Assembly: GCA_001599355.1 (NCBI GenBank)
Contig: BCGQ01000001.1
Span: 2,731,135-2,795,134 of the forward strand
DNA: 64,000 nucleotides
Reading direction: 5' to 3'
Source: Nakazawaea peltata
Taxonomy: Eukaryota > Ascomycota > Pichiomycetes > Alaninales > Pachysolenaceae
Part shown: positions 4,731-33,234 of the stretch, piece by piece
Layout: each line of letters begins with the position of its first letter
Position numbering within the stretch: position 1 is the first letter of the stretch
Notes under the pieces: model-generated
What the model saw: only the letters and a program-made list of their open reading frames with translations
Told to the model about the DNA's origin: nothing
The model's database searches: none
Translations under genes and position numbers: made by a program

Positions 4731-6443
4731 TTAGAGTCTAATGAGACCTTTCTTGACGGCAGAGTTTAAAATACTGATAAGAGACAAGAAGGAAGCTTGC
4801 GAGATATCCTCATGGATACCTACACCCCAGATGGAGGTATTGAGAGACAGACCATCACTAAGAGAGCATTCAATGTAGGTAGCAGCCTTCGAGTCTGAGT
4901 CTTTACCCAAAGAATGTTCATGGAACTTTAAGATCTTCACGTTCAGTCTGAAGAACTTGGATAAAGCGTTTGTCAGAGACGAAAGAGGACCGTTTCCTAC
5001 TCCCTCTAAAGAGTGTTCGGTACCATTGATAGATAACAACAAGTTACATCTTCTAGAGTTCTTGTCGAGGACCTTCATTTCGTAGTCGATCAACTTGATA
5101 GGATAAGATTCATCATTCAAGATAAAGTTCTGATAGAACAAGTCTACGATTTCATTACTCACCAACTCTCTACCGACCTGTTCAGTGGAAGACTGAACCA
5201 CTTTACTGAATTCCACCTGTAAACCACGAGGTAAGTCCAATTCCAAGTTCCGCAAGATGATCCATGAGGCTCCACCTTTACCGGACTGTGAGTTGACTCT
5301 GATAATCAGCTCGTATGTTCTTCCAATATCCAGAGGATCGATAGGCAAATATGGGATCTGCCACTTCAGGTCCTTCGGACCCTCGTCTCTCATCTTGAAA
5401 CCCTTCTTGATGGCATCTTGATGTGATCCACTGAATGCACATACCACTAATTGACCTCCATATGGAGCTCTTGGATGTACCGGGATCTTGTTACAACGCT
5501 CAACGATGTCTACAACGGAGGAGATATCTGAGAAGTCCAACTTTGGGGAGATTCCCTGCGAATACAAATTCAAGGCCAAGGTCACCAAGTCTACATTACC
5601 TGTTCTTTCTCCATTTCCGAAAAGACATCCTTCGACTCTGTCTGCACCGGCCATCTGGGCCAATTCCAGAGCCAGAACAGCACATCCTCTGTCATTATGA
5701 GGATGTAAAGAGATACAAACCTTCTCACGTTCCGAGATACCGGTCGAGAACACCTCGATTTGATCAGCGTAAACGTTTGGAGTGGACATCTCAACAGTAG
5801 CAGGTAAATTGAAAATAATAGGATTCTCAACAGTCGGTTCCCATTCGGCCTTAACAGCTTCACATACTTTAAGAGCATATTCAGGACTTGTATCACTGAA
5901 AGTTTCTGGACTAAACTCGAAATCCCACTCGGTTCCTTGTTGAGATGGGTCATCTTTAGTCAACTGGCGGACTAAACGAGCAGACTTGGCAGCTAATTCT
6001 AAAGACTCATCCTCCGACATTCCAAAGATGACTCGTCTGAAGCAGGCAGATGTAGCCAAATAGATATGCACTGTGGCCTTCTTAGCACCTCTTAAAGACT
6101 CGATTGTCCTCTTGATCAACTCTTCTCTACAAGGACTCAAGACTTGGATAGACACATCATCAGGGGCGTTCTTAACGGCCCATTGAGTGAAATCGAAATC
6201 GATTTGAGAAGCACTTGGGAAAGCCACCTCAATCTCCTTGAATCCAATCTCAACTAACTTCAAGAAATACTCTTTCTTCTGCTCTACAGACATAGGGTCA
6301 GGTAACGATTGGTTACCATCTCTCAAGTCGGTGGAAAGCCAACGTGGAGGTTTGTCCAAGGTCTTGGATGGCCATTGGCGGTAAGGTAAGTGAACTGGAG
6401 GGAACTTCAGATACTTCACGGAAGGGTCTGCTAACATGACCAT
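4731..6443 (-). CDS. LEU4: 2-isopropylmalate synthase
   Basis: A 570-residue enzyme that condenses acetyl-CoA with 2-ketoisovalerate, the first committed step of leucine synthesis. The catalytic HMGL-like domain starts with the conserved RWLSTDLRDGNQ motif (about residues 35-46, holding a metal-binding Asp). It continues through the HPHNDRGC motif and the GNGERTGNVDLVTLALNLYSQG signature. A C-terminal LeuA dimer/allosteric domain follows (GVGNGPLSSL). The protein begins close to the mature core: the N-terminal extension that targets S. cerevisiae Leu4 to mitochondria is absent, so a cytosolic form is predicted. CTG codons at 5673-5675 and 5667-5669 (residues 257 and 259) fall in the CAVAAAEL-type motif, where other fungi mostly have Ala. 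Divergent from the amine oxidase gene. Confidence 0.95.
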   Translation of the reverse strand: MVMLADPSVKYLKFPPVHLPYRQWPSKTLDKPPRWLSTDLRDGNQSLPDPMSVEQKKEYFLKLVEIGFKEIEVAFPSASQIDFDFTQWAVKNAPDDVSIQVLSPCREELIKRTIESLRGAKKATVHIYLATSACFRRVIFGMSEDESLELAAKSARLVRQLTKDDPSQQGTEWDFEFSPETFSDTSPEYALKVCEAVKAEWEPTVENPIIFNLPATVEMSTPNVYADQIEVFSTGISEREKVCISLHPHNDRGCAVLALELAQMAGADRVEGCLFGNGERTGNVDLVTLALNLYSQGISPKLDFSDISSVVDIVERCNKIPVHPRAPYGGQLVVCAFSGSHQDAIKKGFKMRDEGPKDLKWQIPYLPIDPLDIGRTYELIIRVNSQSGKGGASWIILRNLELDLPRGLQVEFSKVVQSSTEQVGRELVSNEIVDLFYQNFILNDESYPIKLIDYEMKVLDKNSRRCNLLLSINGTEHSLEGVGNGPLSSLTNALSKFFRLNVKILKFHEHSLGKDSDSKAATYIECSLSDGLSLNTSIWGVGIHEDISQASFLSLISILNSAVKKGLIRL

Positions 6444-7494: not shown

Positions 7495-9495
7495 ATGTCT
7501 GCTACTAAACTTCACCCATTCGACTCTTTACAAGAGTCCGAATTCAGACTCGCTGTTAAGTTGATCAAAAATGAGTACTCTGAGAAGCCTCATTTCATCA
7601 CCGTCGACAGATTAGACCCTCCAAAGAAGGATGCTATTAGATACTTGGAAGCCGAGAAGAACGGTACTGCCTTGCCTGTCATCCCAAGAGTCGTCTATCT
7701 GTACTACTACACCAACAACGGTAAGGATTTCCACAAGGCTTTGGTTAATGTCAGCCTTGGTCACATTATTGTCAAGGAGACCTTACCAAAGGGTGTTATT
7801 GGTCCATTATTACCAGAAGACATGGGTGAGATCGAAGAGATTTGTATGAAACATCCTCTCGTTCAAGCTGAGATCGCCAAATTGCAATTGCCAAAGGGTG
7901 TTCATGTCAGAAATGACCCATGGATGTACGGTACCGATGACTCCAACGATGAGAGACCTTTGATTCAATGTTACATGTACTTGCGTTATGACCATGACGA
8001 GTCTAACCATTACTCTTTGCCATTGAAGTTCTCTCCAGTCTTCGAGGCCTTCACCAACAAATTGGTCAGAATCGACTACTTGCCAGGTGGTCATGACGAG
8101 ACTATCACTCCAACTACCCCATGGAAGCAAGTCCCAGCCGTTGAATACCACCCAGACTTGAACGGTGTTCCAACCAAGACCGACTTGAAGCCTTTGATCG
8201 TCCAACAACCAGAAGGTCCTTCTTTCAACGTTAACGGTTCCTTGATCGAATGGCAAGATTGGAGATTCAGAGTCGCTCCAAACTGTAGAGAAGGTTTCGC
8301 CATTTACGACGTTACTTTCAAGGGTAGATCTGTCGCTTATAGAATCTCTTTGTCTGAGATGACTGTCCCATACGGTGACCCAAGAGCCCCATACCATAGA
8401 AAGCAAGCCTTTGATTTGGGTGACTGTGGTTTCGGTACTACCGGTAACAGTTTGAACTTGGGTTGTGACTGTCTTGGTGTTATTAAGTACCTTGACACTA
8501 TCAGAACCAATGCCGAAGGTGAACCAATCTTGGTTCCAAACACCGTCTGTTTGCATGAACAAGATTACGGTATTCTTTACAAGCATGTTAACTACAGAAC
8601 TAACGCTGCTGTCGTTGCTAGAAGAAGAGAATTCGTCGTTCAAACCATTGCTACCGTTGCTAACTACGAGTACATCATTAACATCATCTTTGACCAAGTA
8701 GGTGCTATCCAAATCCAAGTCAGAGCTACTGGTATCTTGTCTACCATGCCAATCGATGACGGAGTTGTTGTTGATTACGGTACTAACGTTGGTCCAAATG
8801 TTATGGCTGCTTACCACCAACATTTATTGGCCTTCAGAATCGACCCAGCCGTCGATGGTCATAAGAACACCGTTGTTTACGACGATGTGTTACCAATGGA
8901 GGAGAACACTCTGTTGAATCCTAACAATGTTGGATTCTACACCAAGAGAACCGTTCTTGAGAAATCTGGTGCTGTTGAACAATCTCCATTCACCAACAGA
9001 GCTTACAAGGTTATTAACGAGAACGTTATTAACAATGTCACTAAGAAGCCTGTTGCTTATAAGATTGAGATGCCAGCTAGACAAATGATCTTGGCTTCTC
9101 CAGAATCTTGGAACGTCAAGAGAGCCACTTATGCTACCAAACAATTGTGGGTCACTAAATACAGAGACAACCAATTGTATGCTGCTGGTGAGTTCACCAA
9201 CCAATCTCTCAAGGACACCGGTGTCGGAGAATGGGCTAACGGTCAAGACAGTGTTAGAAATGAGGATGTCGTCGTTTGGGCTACCTTGGGTTTCACCCAC
9301 GTTCCAAGACTGGAAGATTTCCCAGTCATGCCTGTAGAGATTCATCACATCAACATTGTTCCATTCGGATTCTTCGAGAAGAACCCAGCTTTGGACTTGC
9401 CTTTGGCTAACAACAACTTCAACAAGTCTCAATACTATGAACAATTCAAGCAAGGAGGTTCTCAAGAGGCTGCTTCTTGTTGCAAGAAGTTATAA
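7495..9495 (+). CDS. AMO1: Copper-containing primary amine oxidase (peroxisomal type)
   Basis: A 666-residue topaquinone copper amine oxidase. It oxidises primary amines (methylamine and similar) to aldehyde, ammonia and peroxide, letting yeasts use amines as nitrogen. Key residues are present: catalytic base Asp307 (in AFDLGDCG), topaquinone precursor Tyr391 in the NYEY motif, and copper ligands His441, His443 and His602. Spacing is the same as in the Ogataea (Hansenula) polymorpha enzyme. The C-terminus ends CCKKL. A Cys-Cys tail is shared with the Ogataea enzyme, but the final KKL is a poor PTS1, and no clear PTS2 is visible at the N-terminus, so peroxisomal import is likely from the family but not proved. 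Codon use is strongly biased (few CTG), suggesting high expression. GATAAG sites upstream fit nitrogen control. S. cerevisiae lacks this gene. Confidence 0.94.
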   Translation: MSATKLHPFDSLQESEFRLAVKLIKNEYSEKPHFITVDRLDPPKKDAIRYLEAEKNGTALPVIPRVVYLYYYTNNGKDFHKALVNVSLGHIIVKETLPKGVIGPLLPEDMGEIEEICMKHPLVQAEIAKLQLPKGVHVRNDPWMYGTDDSNDERPLIQCYMYLRYDHDESNHYSLPLKFSPVFEAFTNKLVRIDYLPGGHDETITPTTPWKQVPAVEYHPDLNGVPTKTDLKPLIVQQPEGPSFNVNGSLIEWQDWRFRVAPNCREGFAIYDVTFKGRSVAYRISLSEMTVPYGDPRAPYHRKQAFDLGDCGFGTTGNSLNLGCDCLGVIKYLDTIRTNAEGEPILVPNTVCLHEQDYGILYKHVNYRTNAAVVARRREFVVQTIATVANYEYIINIIFDQVGAIQIQVRATGILSTMPIDDGVVVDYGTNVGPNVMAAYHQHLLAFRIDPAVDGHKNTVVYDDVLPMEENTLLNPNNVGFYTKRTVLEKSGAVEQSPFTNRAYKVINENVINNVTKKPVAYKIEMPARQMILASPESWNVKRATYATKQLWVTKYRDNQLYAAGEFTNQSLKDTGVGEWANGQDSVRNEDVVVWATLGFTHVPRLEDFPVMPVEIHHINIVPFGFFEKNPALDLPLANNNFNKSQYYEQFKQGGSQEAASCCKKL

Positions 9496-23108: not shown

Positions 23109-25178
23109 ATGAATAGAGATATCAGTATGGGATCAAGATACTGGGCGCTTGTCATGCGCTTGCTTTTGGTGTCGATACTTACAGGTGTGGCGTTTCTGGC
23201 AGGTCCCGATGACGACAGCGCTGTGTTCACGCTGAGGATCAGACAGTTGGATGAATTGTTCAAGACCAAAGGAGCTACCATGGATGTCTTACAACAGTAT
23301 GAATCTGTGATCTCGGATTTCAACAAATTGAACAAGACAACTTCACATGAGATCTTTATACTGCAGAATTTACCTCAATTGTATTTCAAGAAGGGATTGA
23401 TCGAATTTTCATTGGGAAAAGAGTCGTTTGCATTGAATAGTTTCGAGCATTGCCATAGATTGGATCATAATTTGGAGCCATGTAAGGCAAGATTAGTGGA
23501 TTTATACTTGAAAAATGGTCGAATTGACGATTTGGAGCTGTTGGATCAATCCAAGCAGTCCGAGAAGGTACTGGCTTTAAAGCTGTTTGTGTCTTCTGCT
23601 CATAATGAGTACAATGCCAAAGATTATACGTCATGTGTTGAGAGTTGTTCTCTGGGATTGGAAGTTGCTCCTTCATTCAATGATTTGCATGCTCTTCGTA
23701 TTAGTTGTCTGCTCTCAGCACAGCTTGAATACGAGACAAAATTGAAAATATTGACCGATGATTATTCTAGTTTAATTTCTCTGGGTCAATATTCGATTAA
23801 AAGTTCCACAGAAGGATCTTTATGGAGTAATTTCTTTGGATCTAATGAAACTCCAACTGACATTGAATCGAAAAAGTTGGCCAATTTCGAGAAAATCTTC
23901 AAATTATCCCTCTTTGGTAATAAAAATTTCGAGTCTGCCACTCAATCATTGAAAAAATGTCTTCGATTAGACAATGATTACGTTGATTGTCAAGTTTACT
24001 CGAAATTGAATTCTAAATTCACTCCATTTTGGAAGATTTTTGACGAAATATCCATATATTATTCACATTTATATTTGAAAAAAGAAGATGACTCGGAATC
24101 GGACGATTCTAACTTCCATGTGGAAGCTTATCAGATTTCAGACAAAGATTGGGAATTTATTTATGACTTTTTATTCCAACAGAAGGTGAAATTGAGCCCT
24201 AAACACCAACAAATATTAGGAATAACAAAGTTAAAGACCAATTTCGAAGTATTGAAATTTTTGACAGAGAAGTTCTTTGAAGAATTTAACCTTTCTGACA
24301 AGAATCTGTATAGTAAGAGTGAATTCTTGAAAGATTTCACTCGTATAGCAATTGAAAGTATTGTAGTTGTGAAGGGTTATTCTATATCTGGTGCGGATAA
24401 AACCTTGATCAATAAAATGTGTCCACTTATAGACCAATTTTTACCTTGTGATTTGGTTCAACAGGTGGATAAATTATTAAATCAACCTGGACTGACAAGA
24501 AAAGATTATATGGAAGCCAAGAGGATTTTGAGTAAGATGTCACCTCGTAGTCGAAAGACTAGTTTGTGGAATTCGAGAATGAAGAAAATTCAATCGAAAT
24601 TCCCAGCACAACAGCAACAACAAAGACAATACCAAAATTCTCAACAGCATCAACAGTTCTTCCAACAACAACAGCAACAACAATATCAACAGCAACGTCA
24701 GCAGCAACGTCAACAACAGCATAATGTTCCACCTGACGTAGATCATTATAAAGTTCTTGAGGTACCTAAAGATGCCGAGGACGCACAGATTAAAAAACTG
24801 TATCGTGATCTGGTGAAGAAATTCCATCCTGATAAGAATAAAAACAGCAAATTTTCGAAGGAGGAATTAGAACTGAAGATGTCCGAGATTAATAATGCTT
24901 ATGAGGTGTTATCTGATAAGGAGAAGAGACAACAATATGATATGCAACGGTCAGGAGGAGGGGGAGGAAGGTTCCGCCAAGGAGGCCATGGTGGACTGCA
25001 ATTTAGACAAGGTGGTCAAATGTTCCAAGGGGGGTTCCCTGGAGGCCAGGATATATTTGGCCAAATGTTCCTGCAGATGCAAAATCAGCAAGCTAGAAGA
25101 GGACAAGCACAAGGTGCAAGAGGACAGGGACGTGCCCAGGGACGAGCCCAGGGACAGAGAAGGGGTGGCTTCTTTTAG
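23109..25178 (+). CDS. JEM1: ER lumenal J-domain co-chaperone (Jem1)
   Basis: A 689-residue DnaJ-type partner of the ER Hsp70 Kar2, needed in yeast for nuclear membrane fusion and ER protein quality control. An N-terminal hydrophobic segment (residues about 10-31) serves as signal or anchor. TPR-like helices follow (about 60-300). A Gln-rich linker (about 500-540) precedes the J domain at about 545-615, with the HPD triad at 573-575. The same order, including the poly-Gln linker before a C-terminal J domain, is found in S. cerevisiae Jem1 (645 residues). The tail is Gly/Arg/Gln-rich. CTG at 24798-24800 (residue 564) sits at the invariant Ala of the J-domain helix II motif (IKKAYR), one of the code-reassignment clues. 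Met7 is an alternative start. Confidence 0.88.
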
Positions 25179-29706: not shown

Positions 29707-32700
29707 ATGTCAGAATTGGAAGAATTCGAGTCATCTGTGGTCAATGACCTCAGAAAATCGTCCTCATTATTGGGCTCTTTGAACAAGATCTTGGTCGCCA
29801 ATAGAGGAGAGATTCCAATTAGAATTTTCAGGACTGCTCATGAGTTGTCTATGCAGACAGTTGCTATTTATTCGCATGAGGATCGTTTGTCCATGCACAG
29901 ATTGAAGGCTGATGAGCTGTATGTCATTGGTAACAGAGGTCAATTCTCTCCAGTCCAACTGTACTTGGCCATTGATGAGATCATCAAGATTGCCAAACAA
30001 CATGGTGTTAATATGATCCACCCAGGTTACGGGTTCCTCTCTGAGAACAGTGAGTTTGCTAGAAAAGTTGAGGAGAACGGTATTAAATGGGTTGGTCCTC
30101 CACATAACGTCATCGATGCTGTGGGTGATAAGGTTAGTGCTAGAACTTTGGCTTTGGAGAACGATGTCCCAGTTGTTCCAGGTACTCCAGGTCCAATTGA
30201 GTCTGTCGAAGAGGCCAAGGAGTTTGTTCTGAAGTACGGCTTCCCAGTCATCATCAAGGCTGCCTTTGGTGGTGGTGGTAGAGGTATGAGAGTCGTTAGA
30301 GAAGGTGATGATATTGCTGATCTGTTCACCAGAGCTACCTCCGAGCTGAGAACTGCTTTCGGTAATGGTACTTGTTTCATCGAAAGATTCTTGGACAAGC
30401 CAAAGCATATTGAGGTTCAATTGCTTGCTGATGCTTACGGTAATGTTATCCACCTTTTCGAGAGAGATTGTTCTGTCCAAAGAAGACACCAAAAGGTTGT
30501 TGAAATTGCTCCTCTGAAGACCTTACCAATTGAGGTTCGTGATGCCATTTTGAAGGACGCTGTCAAGTTGGCTAAACTGGCCAACTACAGAAATGCCGGT
30601 ACCGCTGAGTTCCTTGTCGATGAACAAAACAGACATTACTTCATCGAGATCAACCCAAGAATTCAAGTCGAACATACTATCACCGAAGAAATCACCGGTG
30701 TCGACATCGTACTGCTGCAAATCCAAGTGGCTGCCGGTGCCTCTTTGGAACAATTAGGTTTGTTACAAGATAAAATCACCACCAGAGGTTTCGCTATCCA
30801 ATGTCGTATCACCACTGAAGACCCAACTAAGAATTTCCAACCTGATACTGGTAAAATCGAGGTTTATAGATCGGCTGGTGGTAATGGTGTGAGATTAGAT
30901 GGTGGTAATGGATTTGCCGGTGCCATTATCTCACCTCATTACGATTCTATGTTGGTCAAATGTTCTTGTTCTGGTTCTACTTACGAAATTGCCAGACGTA
31001 AGATGATCAGATCTCTTGTAGAGTTCAGAATTAGAGGTGTTAAGACCAATATTCCATTCTTACTTTCTCTTTTGACCAATCCTACTTTCATCGAGGGTAA
31101 TTGTTGGACTACTTTCATCGATGATACTCCTTCATTGTTCCAAATGATGTCTACTAAGAACAGAGCTCAAAAATTGTTGCTGTATTTGGGAGATTTGGCC
31201 GTCAACGGTTCTTCTATTGCTGGACAAGTTGGATTGCCAAAGTTGGACAAAGAACTGTTAATCCCACCAATTCACGACCCAGCTACCGGAGAGTTGATCG
31301 ACGTCACTACTGCTCCTCCAAAGGGTTGGAGAGATGTCTTGTTACTGGAAGGACCAGAAGGTTTCGCCAAGAAGGTTCGTCAATTCAACGGTACTTTGGT
31401 CATGGACACCACTTGGAGAGATCTGCATCAATCTTTATTGGCTACCAGAGTTAGAACTATCGACTTATTGAACATTGCTCCAACTACAGCTCATGCTTTG
31501 AGCGGTGCTTTCGCTTTGGAATGTTGGGGTGGTGCTACTTTCGATGTCTCGATGAGATTCTTACATGAGGACCCATGGATCAGATTACGTAAATTGAGAA
31601 AACTGGTTCCTAACATTCCATTCCAGATGTTGTTGAGAGGTGCCAACGGTGTTGCTTACTCTTCTTTGCCAGATAATGCCATTGACCACTTTGTCAAGCA
31701 AGCCAAGGAGATTGGTGTCGACATTTTCAGAGTATTCGATGCTTTGAACGATTTGGAGCAATTGTCTGTCGGTGTCAATGCTGTCAAGAAGGCTGGTGGT
31801 GTCGTTGAGGCTACCGTCTGTTACTCTGGTGACATGTTGCAACCAGGTAAGAAGTACAACTTGGAGTACTACTTGGAAGTTGTCGACAAGATCGTCAAGA
31901 TGGGTACCCATATCTTGGGTATCAAGGATATGGCTGGTACTTTGAAGCCAACTGCTGCTAAGAAGTTGATCTCGGCTATTAGAGCCAAGTACCCAGACTT
32001 GCCAATCCATGTCCATACTCATGATTCCGCCGGTACCGGTGTAGCTTCTATGGCTGAGTGTGCTAAGGCTGGAGCCGATGTAGTGGATGTTGCTTCTAAC
32101 TCGATGTCCGGTTTGACTTCTCAACCATCTATCTCTGCTTTACTGGCTTCTTTGGAAGGTGAGATCGATACTGGACTTGAACCTTCTTTGGTTAGAGAGA
32201 TCGACAGTTACTGGGCTGAGATGAGATTGTTGTACTCTTGTTTCGCTGCTGACTTGAACGGTCCTGACCCAGAGGTTTATCAACATGAGATCCCAGGTGG
32301 TCAATTGACCAACTTGTTATTCCAAGCTCAACAAGTTGGTTTGGGTGAGAAGTGGTTGGAGACCAAGAAGACTTACGAAGAGGCCAACAAATTGTTGGGT
32401 GATATCGTCAAGGTCACCCCAACTTCTAAGGTTGTTGGTGACTTGGCTCAATTCATGGTTTCCAACAAGTTGACCTCTCAAGATGTCGAAAGATTGGCTT
32501 CCGAATTGGACTTCCCTGACTCTGTCTTGGACTTCTTTGAAGGGTTGATGGGTACCCCATACGGAGGATTCCCAGAACCTTTGAGAACTAATGTCTTACA
32601 CGGTAAGAGAAGAAAGTTGAACAAGAGACCGGGATTGGAATTGGCTCCATTCGACTTGAAGAGTATCAAGGAAGACTTGAGCTCGAGATTCGATGGTATC

Positions 32701-33234
32701 ACCGAGGCCGACGTTGCTTCTTACAACATGTACCCTAAGGTATTTGAGCTGTTCAAGAAGATCCAACTGCAATACGGAGACTTGTCTGTCTTGCCAACCA
32801 GATACTTCTTGTCTCCTCCTAAATTAAACGAGGAGATTGCCGTTGAGTTGGAGAAGGGTAAGGTGTTGATCATCAAGTGTATGGCTGTTGGAGACTTGAG
32901 TAGCAACGGTACCAGAGAGGTTTACTTTGAGTTGAACGGTGAGATGAGAAAGGTCACTGTTGAGGACAAGAAGGCTGCTGTCGAGACCGTCACTAGACCA
33001 AAGGCCGATGCTCATAATCCAAATGAAGTTGGAGCCCCAATGGCTGGTGTTGTGGTTGAGGTTAGAGTCAAGGAAGGTACTGAGGTTAAGAAGGGAGACC
33101 CATTATGTGTTTTGTCAGCTATGAAGATGGAGATGGTTATCTCTGCTCCAGTTGCGGGTAAGGTTGGAGAGGTTGTTATCAAGGAGGGAGACTCTGTTGA
33201 TGCAGCTGATTTGATTTGCAGAATCCTTAAATGA
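29707..33234 (+). CDS. PYC1: Pyruvate carboxylase
   Basis: A 1175-residue biotin enzyme that carboxylates pyruvate to oxaloacetate in the cytosol, refilling the TCA cycle. Order: biotin carboxylase domain (LNKILVANRGEI; ATP-grasp GGGGRGMR; catalytic RNAGTAEFLVD and EINPRIQVEHT), carboxyltransferase domain (FNGTLVMDTTWRD; metal-binding HVHTHDSAG), the PYC-specific domain and the C-terminal biotin carrier with biotinyl-Lys1140 in AMKM. Length matches S. cerevisiae Pyc1/2 (about 1178). The frame is open back to 29686, but the first ATG is 29707. CTG codons at residues 71, 85, 175, 206, 214, 270, 291, 336, 337 and 573 lie mostly at family Ala positions (for example WRDAHQSLLATR), strong evidence that CUG means Ala here. 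Confidence 0.97.
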   Translation: MSELEEFESSVVNDLRKSSSLLGSLNKILVANRGEIPIRIFRTAHELSMQTVAIYSHEDRLSMHRLKADELYVIGNRGQFSPVQLYLAIDEIIKIAKQHGVNMIHPGYGFLSENSEFARKVEENGIKWVGPPHNVIDAVGDKVSARTLALENDVPVVPGTPGPIESVEEAKEFVLKYGFPVIIKAAFGGGGRGMRVVREGDDIADLFTRATSELRTAFGNGTCFIERFLDKPKHIEVQLLADAYGNVIHLFERDCSVQRRHQKVVEIAPLKTLPIEVRDAILKDAVKLAKLANYRNAGTAEFLVDEQNRHYFIEINPRIQVEHTITEEITGVDIVLLQIQVAAGASLEQLGLLQDKITTRGFAIQCRITTEDPTKNFQPDTGKIEVYRSAGGNGVRLDGGNGFAGAIISPHYDSMLVKCSCSGSTYEIARRKMIRSLVEFRIRGVKTNIPFLLSLLTNPTFIEGNCWTTFIDDTPSLFQMMSTKNRAQKLLLYLGDLAVNGSSIAGQVGLPKLDKELLIPPIHDPATGELIDVTTAPPKGWRDVLLLEGPEGFAKKVRQFNGTLVMDTTWRDLHQSLLATRVRTIDLLNIAPTTAHALSGAFALECWGGATFDVSMRFLHEDPWIRLRKLRKLVPNIPFQMLLRGANGVAYSSLPDNAIDHFVKQAKEIGVDIFRVFDALNDLEQLSVGVNAVKKAGGVVEATVCYSGDMLQPGKKYNLEYYLEVVDKIVKMGTHILGIKDMAGTLKPTAAKKLISAIRAKYPDLPIHVHTHDSAGTGVASMAECAKAGADVVDVASNSMSGLTSQPSISALLASLEGEIDTGLEPSLVREIDSYWAEMRLLYSCFAADLNGPDPEVYQHEIPGGQLTNLLFQAQQVGLGEKWLETKKTYEEANKLLGDIVKVTPTSKVVGDLAQFMVSNKLTSQDVERLASELDFPDSVLDFFEGLMGTPYGGFPEPLRTNVLHGKRRKLNKRPGLELAPFDLKSIKEDLSSRFDGITEADVASYNMYPKVFELFKKIQLQYGDLSVLPTRYFLSPPKLNEEIAVELEKGKVLIIKCMAVGDLSSNGTREVYFELNGEMRKVTVEDKKAAVETVTRPKADAHNPNEVGAPMAGVVVEVRVKEGTEVKKGDPLCVLSAMKMEMVISAPVAGKVGEVVIKEGDSVDAADLICRILK

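Follow-up and report, generated by a model that had tools for sequence, protein, structure and literature searches.

The 64,000-nucleotide stretch analysed here (G000:C1:2731135-2795134, hereafter the window) is yeast nuclear DNA with a G+C content of 42%, and its source is almost certainly a budding yeast within the CUG-Ala clade (order Alaninales) that would decode CUG as alanine and that is sister, in our sampling, to Pachysolen. An initial annotation of the window had proposed such a code from the CTG codons of PYC1 and several other genes. The proposal is supported by the alanine residues that homologues carry at conserved CTG columns, by the identity elements of a CAG-anticodon tRNA encoded in the source genome (11,631,020 bases scanned, in 11 contigs), and by a PYC1 tree.

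CTG codons at conserved alanine positions

The CTG codons considered first lie in the following features of the window.

29707..33234, plus strand: PYC1 (pyruvate carboxylase), 1175 aa; 17 in-frame CTG codons; NCBI table 26 (CTG = Ala) restores conserved Ala residues
29959..29961, plus strand: CTG at an invariant Ala, PYC1 aa 85; Ala in 119-120 of 120 homologues
Codons from 30322, 30346, 30514, 30712 and 30715, plus strand: CTG at invariant Ala, PYC1; Ala in 119-120 of 120 homologues
31423..31425, plus strand: CTG at the invariant Ala of the WRDAHQSLLATR motif, PYC1 aa 573; Ala in 120 of 120 homologues
31603..31605, plus strand: exception, PYC1 aa 633; CTG, homologues Leu 90, Ala 28 of 120
32143..32145, plus strand: exception, PYC1 aa 813; CTG, homologues Leu 74, Ile 44 of 120
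4731..6443, minus strand: LEU4 (2-isopropylmalate synthase); 9 CTG codons
60227..62032, plus strand: NCS1-type permease; 13 CTG codons
23109..25178, plus strand: J-domain protein (JEM1 in the initial annotation, a label that is unconfirmed); the CTG codons at 24798 and 24810 fall at a J-domain Ala and a J-domain Leu, respectively

For PYC1, LEU4 and the permease, 120 homologues were listed per gene, and the CTG codons of the query were written as X before aligning, which keeps the alignment from favouring any residue. The PYC1 alignment does not contain S. cerevisiae PYC1; the closest relative among the listed homologues is that of Pachysolen tannophilus, at 87% identity. Seventeen CTG positions had been named as evidence in the initial annotation (ten in PYC1, two in LEU4, one in JEM1 and four in the permease), and all prove to be in-frame CTG codons. 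The claim that they fall at alanine, or at least where no leucine is conserved, holds in its stronger form for 14 of the 17, where alanine is the majority residue; the other three, all in PYC1, stand in columns without conserved leucine, namely 29917 (73 Ser and 47 Ala of 120 homologues), 30229 (71 Glu, 18 Ala) and 30577 (70 Ser, 9 Leu, 7 Ala). Counting the two sites given there as exceptions, 31603 and 32143, where homologues do have mainly Leu and Leu/Ile, 12 of the 17 PYC1 codons had been named. The remaining five comprise two that lean towards alanine (31180, with 45 Ala, and 31255, with 101 Ala, of 120 homologues), one divided between Ala and Asp (32749, 44/42) and two in Glu columns (31345 and 32767). 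The residue at 31423 is also Ala in the five PDB pyruvate carboxylase alignments shown.

The same pattern extends to the other two well-sampled genes. LEU4 has CTG at Ala columns at 5673-5675 (118/120), 5667-5669 (115/120) and 5307-5309 (120/120), and the permease at the codons from 60533, 60983, 61424, 61457, 61577 and 61721 (Ala in 108-120 of 120 homologues; 120, 112, 119 and 118 for the last four). Among the CTG codons of these two genes beyond those initially named are some in Lys, Val, Phe, Ile, Cys and Leu columns, and others that fall at additional Ala positions. In the J-domain gene, CTG 24798 aligns with Ala and the nearby 24810 with Leu in the same five PDB alignments shown (57 matches), the five chains looking like three different proteins.

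Column statistics were drawn from 356 of the 360 homologues, the four left out being Pachysolen and one close relative, and from 38 of the 39 CTG columns, one gappy column having been dropped. Near-identical rows were down-weighted, and an effective number of four sequences per column, our own setting, was used for the log-likelihood. All 12 CTG columns that are at least 95% conserved are Ala columns; at the 90% level (n = 16) there are 15 Ala and one Phe, with neither Leu nor Ser, and at the 80% level Leu accounts for one of 20. Alanine is the majority residue in 18 of 38 CTG columns as opposed to none of 203 columns of other leucine codons (Fisher p = 5e-17), which excludes chance; the latter columns are 65-79% Leu. 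Seen from the opposite direction, columns with at least 90% Ala (n = 98) have the codons GCT (52), GCC (27), CTG (15), GCA (3) and GAA (1) here. The mean composition of CTG columns is 51% Ala, 8% Leu and 7% Ser, and that of GCN columns 69% Ala, 0.9% Leu and 8.3% Ser. The column log-likelihood places alanine above serine by 141 and above leucine by 336. No sampled PYC1 or LEU4 homologue has Leu at columns that are at least 85% Ala, and the permease relative P0241 has it at one of 19 such columns.

These figures bear directly on two other decodings of CUG. Under the standard code CUG would be leucine, and CTG would merely have settled at variable sites. CTG codons do align with Leu at PYC1 31603 and 32143, permease 61748, JEM1 24810 and FMS1 42572, 43094 and 43106, but the most conserved CTG columns are all Ala, CTG is absent from the 128 columns with a Leu share of 90% or more, and no tRNA-Leu(CAG) was found within the scans described below. 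We regard this reading as wildly improbable and reject it for the three sampled genes. Serine decoding, as in the CUG-Ser1 or CUG-Ser2 clades, with the Ala columns arising from Ala/Ser exchange, could appeal to the serine share of the CTG columns and to mixed Ser/Ala sites such as PYC1 29917. True-alanine GCN columns, however, hold a similar serine share, CTG fills none of the 67 columns that are at least 90% Ser, the likelihood gap stands against serine, and the long variable arm that marks tRNA-Ser is missing from the CAG tRNA; this reading is very improbable and is likewise rejected for the three genes. The initial annotation had judged serine the weaker fit, with which the lack of any Ser column among the 16 agrees. 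It had also set against its own proposal the case of CTG codons falling mostly at Leu or Ser; what we find at the conserved CTG columns is Ala.

A CAG-anticodon tRNA with alanine identity elements

One CAG-anticodon tRNA gene was found, and it lies outside the window (G000:C4:81426-81498, plus strand). Scanning for the pattern of a CAG anticodon with a B box at the proper distance behind it returned 46 matches (23 of them by the reversed pattern), all of which were checked with ARAGORN (30 loci and the other 16); one of the 46 is a CAG tRNA. ARAGORN, going by the anticodon alone, calls it tRNA-Leu, but its anatomy is not leucine-like, being that of a class I tRNA of 73 bases with a five-base variable loop, G3-U70 and A73. 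The G3-U70 pair is the established identity pair of alanine tRNAs. Both G3-U70 and A73 are also present in tRNA-Ala(AGC) and tRNA-Ala(UGC) of the source genome, with which the CAG tRNA further shares the variable loop AGGTC and a U6-U67 mismatch; tRNA-Val(UAC) has the mismatch too, but combines it with U3-G70. A poly-T tract lies just downstream of the gene. In the Rfam tRNA model the CAG tRNA scores 50.9 bits with permissive filters (cut-off 29), and at the gathering threshold Rfam reports no match for it, nor for the loci L059 and L140, with tRNA-Leu(UAG) and tRNA-Val(AAC). The sole CAG tRNA found thus combines a short variable loop with the identity elements of alanine, in keeping with the tRNA search suggested in the initial annotation.

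Alanyl-tRNA synthetase requires no particular anticodon bases, as a passage of PMC5951914 has it. The enzyme would accordingly be able to recognise G3-U70 of the CAG tRNA whatever its anticodon, and the tRNA would therefore be charged with alanine and insert it at CUG. The ancestral tRNA-Leu(CAG) would have been lost, while CUU and CUC would be read by tRNA-Leu(AAG) and CUA by tRNA-Leu(UAG).

Directly downstream of the CAG tRNA lies an open frame (G000:C4, L056 2435-3028) that contains 27 CTG among its 198 codons and gives a Gln/Ala-rich protein under table 26.

Search for competing CAG tRNAs

A class II A box scan allowing up to three mismatches gave 40 matches (25 by the reversed pattern), 34 of which were examined by ARAGORN. 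This yielded nine tRNA-Leu genes, five with the anticodon CAA, two with UAA and one each with AAG and UAG, and none of the nine is a tRNA-Leu(CAG), with 34 of the 40 A box matches read and the remaining six having three mismatches. A scan for CAG followed by a B box at gaps of 20-34 gave 18 matches, all read, without a CAG tRNA: these are three tRNA-Tyr(GUA) genes, tRNA-Leu(AAG), 13 non-tRNA places and one intron-containing gene, which ARAGORN calls Val(GAC) and which looks to us like tRNA-Phe(GAA). A tRNA-Ser(CAG) was likewise not found within the pattern scans of the source genome. A genome holding only a tRNA-Leu(CAG) or a tRNA-Ser(CAG), which the initial annotation had named as contrary evidence, is therefore not what emerges within the limits of these scans, which might miss a gene that is interrupted by an intron or has a divergent A box.

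One candidate required correction. ARAGORN labels C7:154353 (L067) as tRNA-Val(CAC) with a 24-nt intron, but the variable arm of the gene is long, and with splicing shifted one base onwards it becomes a tRNA-Leu(CAA) that matches another tRNA-Leu(CAA) at 77 of 82 bases; we therefore count it among the five CAA genes.

The only tRNA-Leu(UAG) found (G000:C4:804518-804725, minus strand; L059 1489-1696) has an intron of about 120 nt, its 208 bases reducing to 88 when spliced. This is close to the largest canonical tRNA introns given in a passage of PMC5951914, which measure 134-318 nt and occur in tRNA-Leu(CAG).

The leucine excess and other evidence at odds with alanine decoding

Several observations weigh against alanine as the sole meaning of CUG, or against the alanine character of its tRNA. 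The first group concerns a small excess of leucine. Leu-majority columns make up 3 of 38 CTG columns vs 1 of 169 GCN columns (p = 0.02, uncorrected), columns with a LIVMF majority 7 of 38 vs 8 of 169 (p = 0.009, uncorrected), and the mean leucine shares of the two sets differ in the same sense, as given above. Comparisons with single PDB homologues form the second group. In the V-ATPase subunit a, five of seven CTGs have an alignable counterpart in S. cerevisiae, namely Ala (57303), Ser, Lys, Ser and Pro; for the three CTGs of the amine oxidase the closest PDB chain has Val, Lys and Val; and at the six of seven alignable CTGs of FMS1 a single PDB homologue has Leu, Ser, Thr, Leu, Leu and Ser. 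The conserved-alanine pattern is not seen in the four genes compared in this way, save at JEM1 24798 and V-ATPase 57303. The PDB comparisons, those of PYC1 and the J-domain gene included, read CTG as Leu, with a possible bias towards Leu, and FMS1 alone was repeated with code 26; its Leu matches were unchanged, two of them adjoining gaps. Comparisons with one homologue each are weak; they add nothing to the case for alanine, and FMS1 adds to the leucine excess.

The third group concerns the tRNA itself. The CAG tRNA is missing from the output of a general tRNA scan in which 63 of 608 candidates were scored, and the absence of rival CAG tRNAs rests for this reason on the pattern scans. Folded freely, the CAG tRNA forms no cloverleaf while tRNA-Ala(AGC) forms nearly one, folding without modified bases being a weak test. 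Its raw identity is 71% to tRNA-Val(UAC) vs 69% to tRNA-Ala(AGC). Arm by arm, the CAG tRNA is a mosaic of Ala-like and Val/Gln-like parts: tRNA-Ala(AGC) is nearest in the acceptor stem (10/14), the T arm (14/17, a tie with tRNA-Glu) and the variable loop (5/5, with ties to others), whereas the D arm matches Gln at 17/18, Val(UAC) at 15/18 and Ala at 11/18, and the anticodon stem matches Val(UAC) and Glu at 7/10 and Ala at 3/10.

A mixture fit of the CTG columns assigns 0.87 to Ala, 0.12 to Leu (95% interval 0.03-0.23) and 0.02 to Ser. The leucine component probably reflects relic codons at old Leu sites that tolerate alanine, and possibly slight leucine decoding; because of it, clean alanine decoding is something that we infer. 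The alternative would be that CUG is mostly alanine with a low but real level of leucine, supplied by leucylation of the CAG tRNA or by wobble of tRNA-Leu(UAG). The CAG tRNA carries A35, G37 and A73, which are features used by leucyl-tRNA synthetase. Together with the fitted Leu share and the Leu matches at three of six FMS1 sites, its G37 could be taken as pointing this way, and a passage of PMC5951914 attributes a 3% leucylation of the C. albicans tRNA-Ser(CAG) to G37. G37 is nevertheless common in tRNAs with G36, and the tRNA-Pro of the source genome has it as well. Relic CTGs, moreover, explain the excess equally, since Pachysolen has Ala at permease 61748 (a Leu column, 97/120), as do 28 of 120 homologues at PYC1 31603, and only three genes are well sampled. 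On balance we consider low-level leucine decoding unlikely. It is, in the same vein, rather doubtful that CUG departs from clean alanine decoding to the extent that some sites keep a functional leucine and the proteins are statistical Ala/Leu mixtures, by either of these two routes.

Origin of the CAG tRNA

When the alignment columns were bootstrapped 2000 times, Val(UAC) came out nearest in 1008 replicates and Ala(AGC) in 804, and because of this split we claim no origin for the CAG tRNA. Derivation from a tRNA-Ala is given for the CUG-Ala clade in part of PMC5951914. A testable alternative, between which and an alanine source one genome cannot decide, is that it arose from a tRNA-Val(CAC) by a single C36-to-G change together with gain of G3-U70. 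Such an origin is testable because no tRNA-Val(CAC) was found and the two anticodons differ by one base: anticodon-to-B-box patterns for this tRNA gave 1 and 21 matches, none tRNA-like by eye. A pattern scan for tRNA-Ala(CGC) similarly gave no plausible gene (one match, judged by eye). A search with PF03175, the killer-plasmid polymerase family that features in a hypothesis outlined in PMC5951914, gave no match, but neither did the control genomes, which deprives the result of weight.

The valine tRNAs present are tRNA-Val(UAC) and five identical pattern matches to tRNA-Val(AAC). GTG supplies 195 of 1032 valine codons in the window's reading frames, although tRNA-Val(CAC) was not found by the patterns.

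Codon usage in the window

The window holds 31 open reading frames of at least 150 aa, of which four overlap longer ones and were dropped, leaving 27 main frames with 15,953 codons (stops counted). CTG accounts for 263 of these; if every CTG is alanine, it provides 263 of 1,159 alanine codons and GCG only 32. CTA is very rare, at 30 codons, vs 261 for CTT and 161 for CTC. Antisense to the amine oxidase gene (7495-9495) are long open frames at 7810-8823 and 8890-9345 on the minus strand (337 and 151 aa), which we take as by-products of codon bias.

Relation to known reassignments

In the PYC1 tree (21 rows, one gene, with no Nakazawaea or Peterozyma rows) the query pairs with Pachysolen tannophilus at a support of 96/96, which supports the placement beside Pachysolen proposed initially; NCBI taxonomy puts Nakazawaea in the Pachysolenaceae, order Alaninales. 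The code does not differ in kind from that of the CUG-Ala clade (table 26, the Pachysolen tannophilus nuclear code, used by Pachysolen, Nakazawaea and Peterozyma), with which it has in common CUG at conserved alanines, a CAG tRNA with alanine identity and the lack of a detected tRNA-Leu(CAG). That clade was described by Krassowski et al. 2018 from BLAST predictions and mass spectrometry of 18 species (PMC5951914, in part). An excerpt of PMC6692504 lists five CUG-Ala species, Peterozyma xylosa, P. toletana, Nakazawaea peltata, N. holstii and Pachysolen tannophilus, and one of PMC8629427 reports the computed meaning of CUG in 462 yeasts, 453 of which agree with expectation. In kind, the finding is thus not new, and it may already be known from this very species. 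One difference is that CUGs of recoded clades are said in a passage of PMC5951914 to tend to avoid well conserved sites, whereas here, in three genes, CTG fills 15 of the 98 columns that are at least 90% Ala.

As in the CUG-Ser1 and CUG-Ser2 clades (Candida; Ascoidea and Saccharomycopsis), CUG is reassigned through a tRNA with a CAG anticodon, but those clades insert serine by means of a class II tRNA, and CTG does not stand at serine columns here. In Ashbya mitochondria, according to part of PMC3874161, CUU and CUA have passed to alanine; this is again a transfer of CUN leucine codons to alanine, but in mitochondria and with other codons.

For the source genome, protein predictions made with the standard code give leucine at CTG, which the alanine at conserved CTG columns indicates is mostly wrong, as the initial annotation had warned; table 26 is the code to use. 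More broadly, the finding confirms a known and rare reassignment of a nuclear sense codon, while the leucine excess and the mosaic CAG tRNA pose two testable questions, namely whether the reassignment is complete and what the source of its tRNA was. An Ala/Leu mixture, if true, would be the Ala-clade counterpart of the Ser/Leu ambiguity in Candida.

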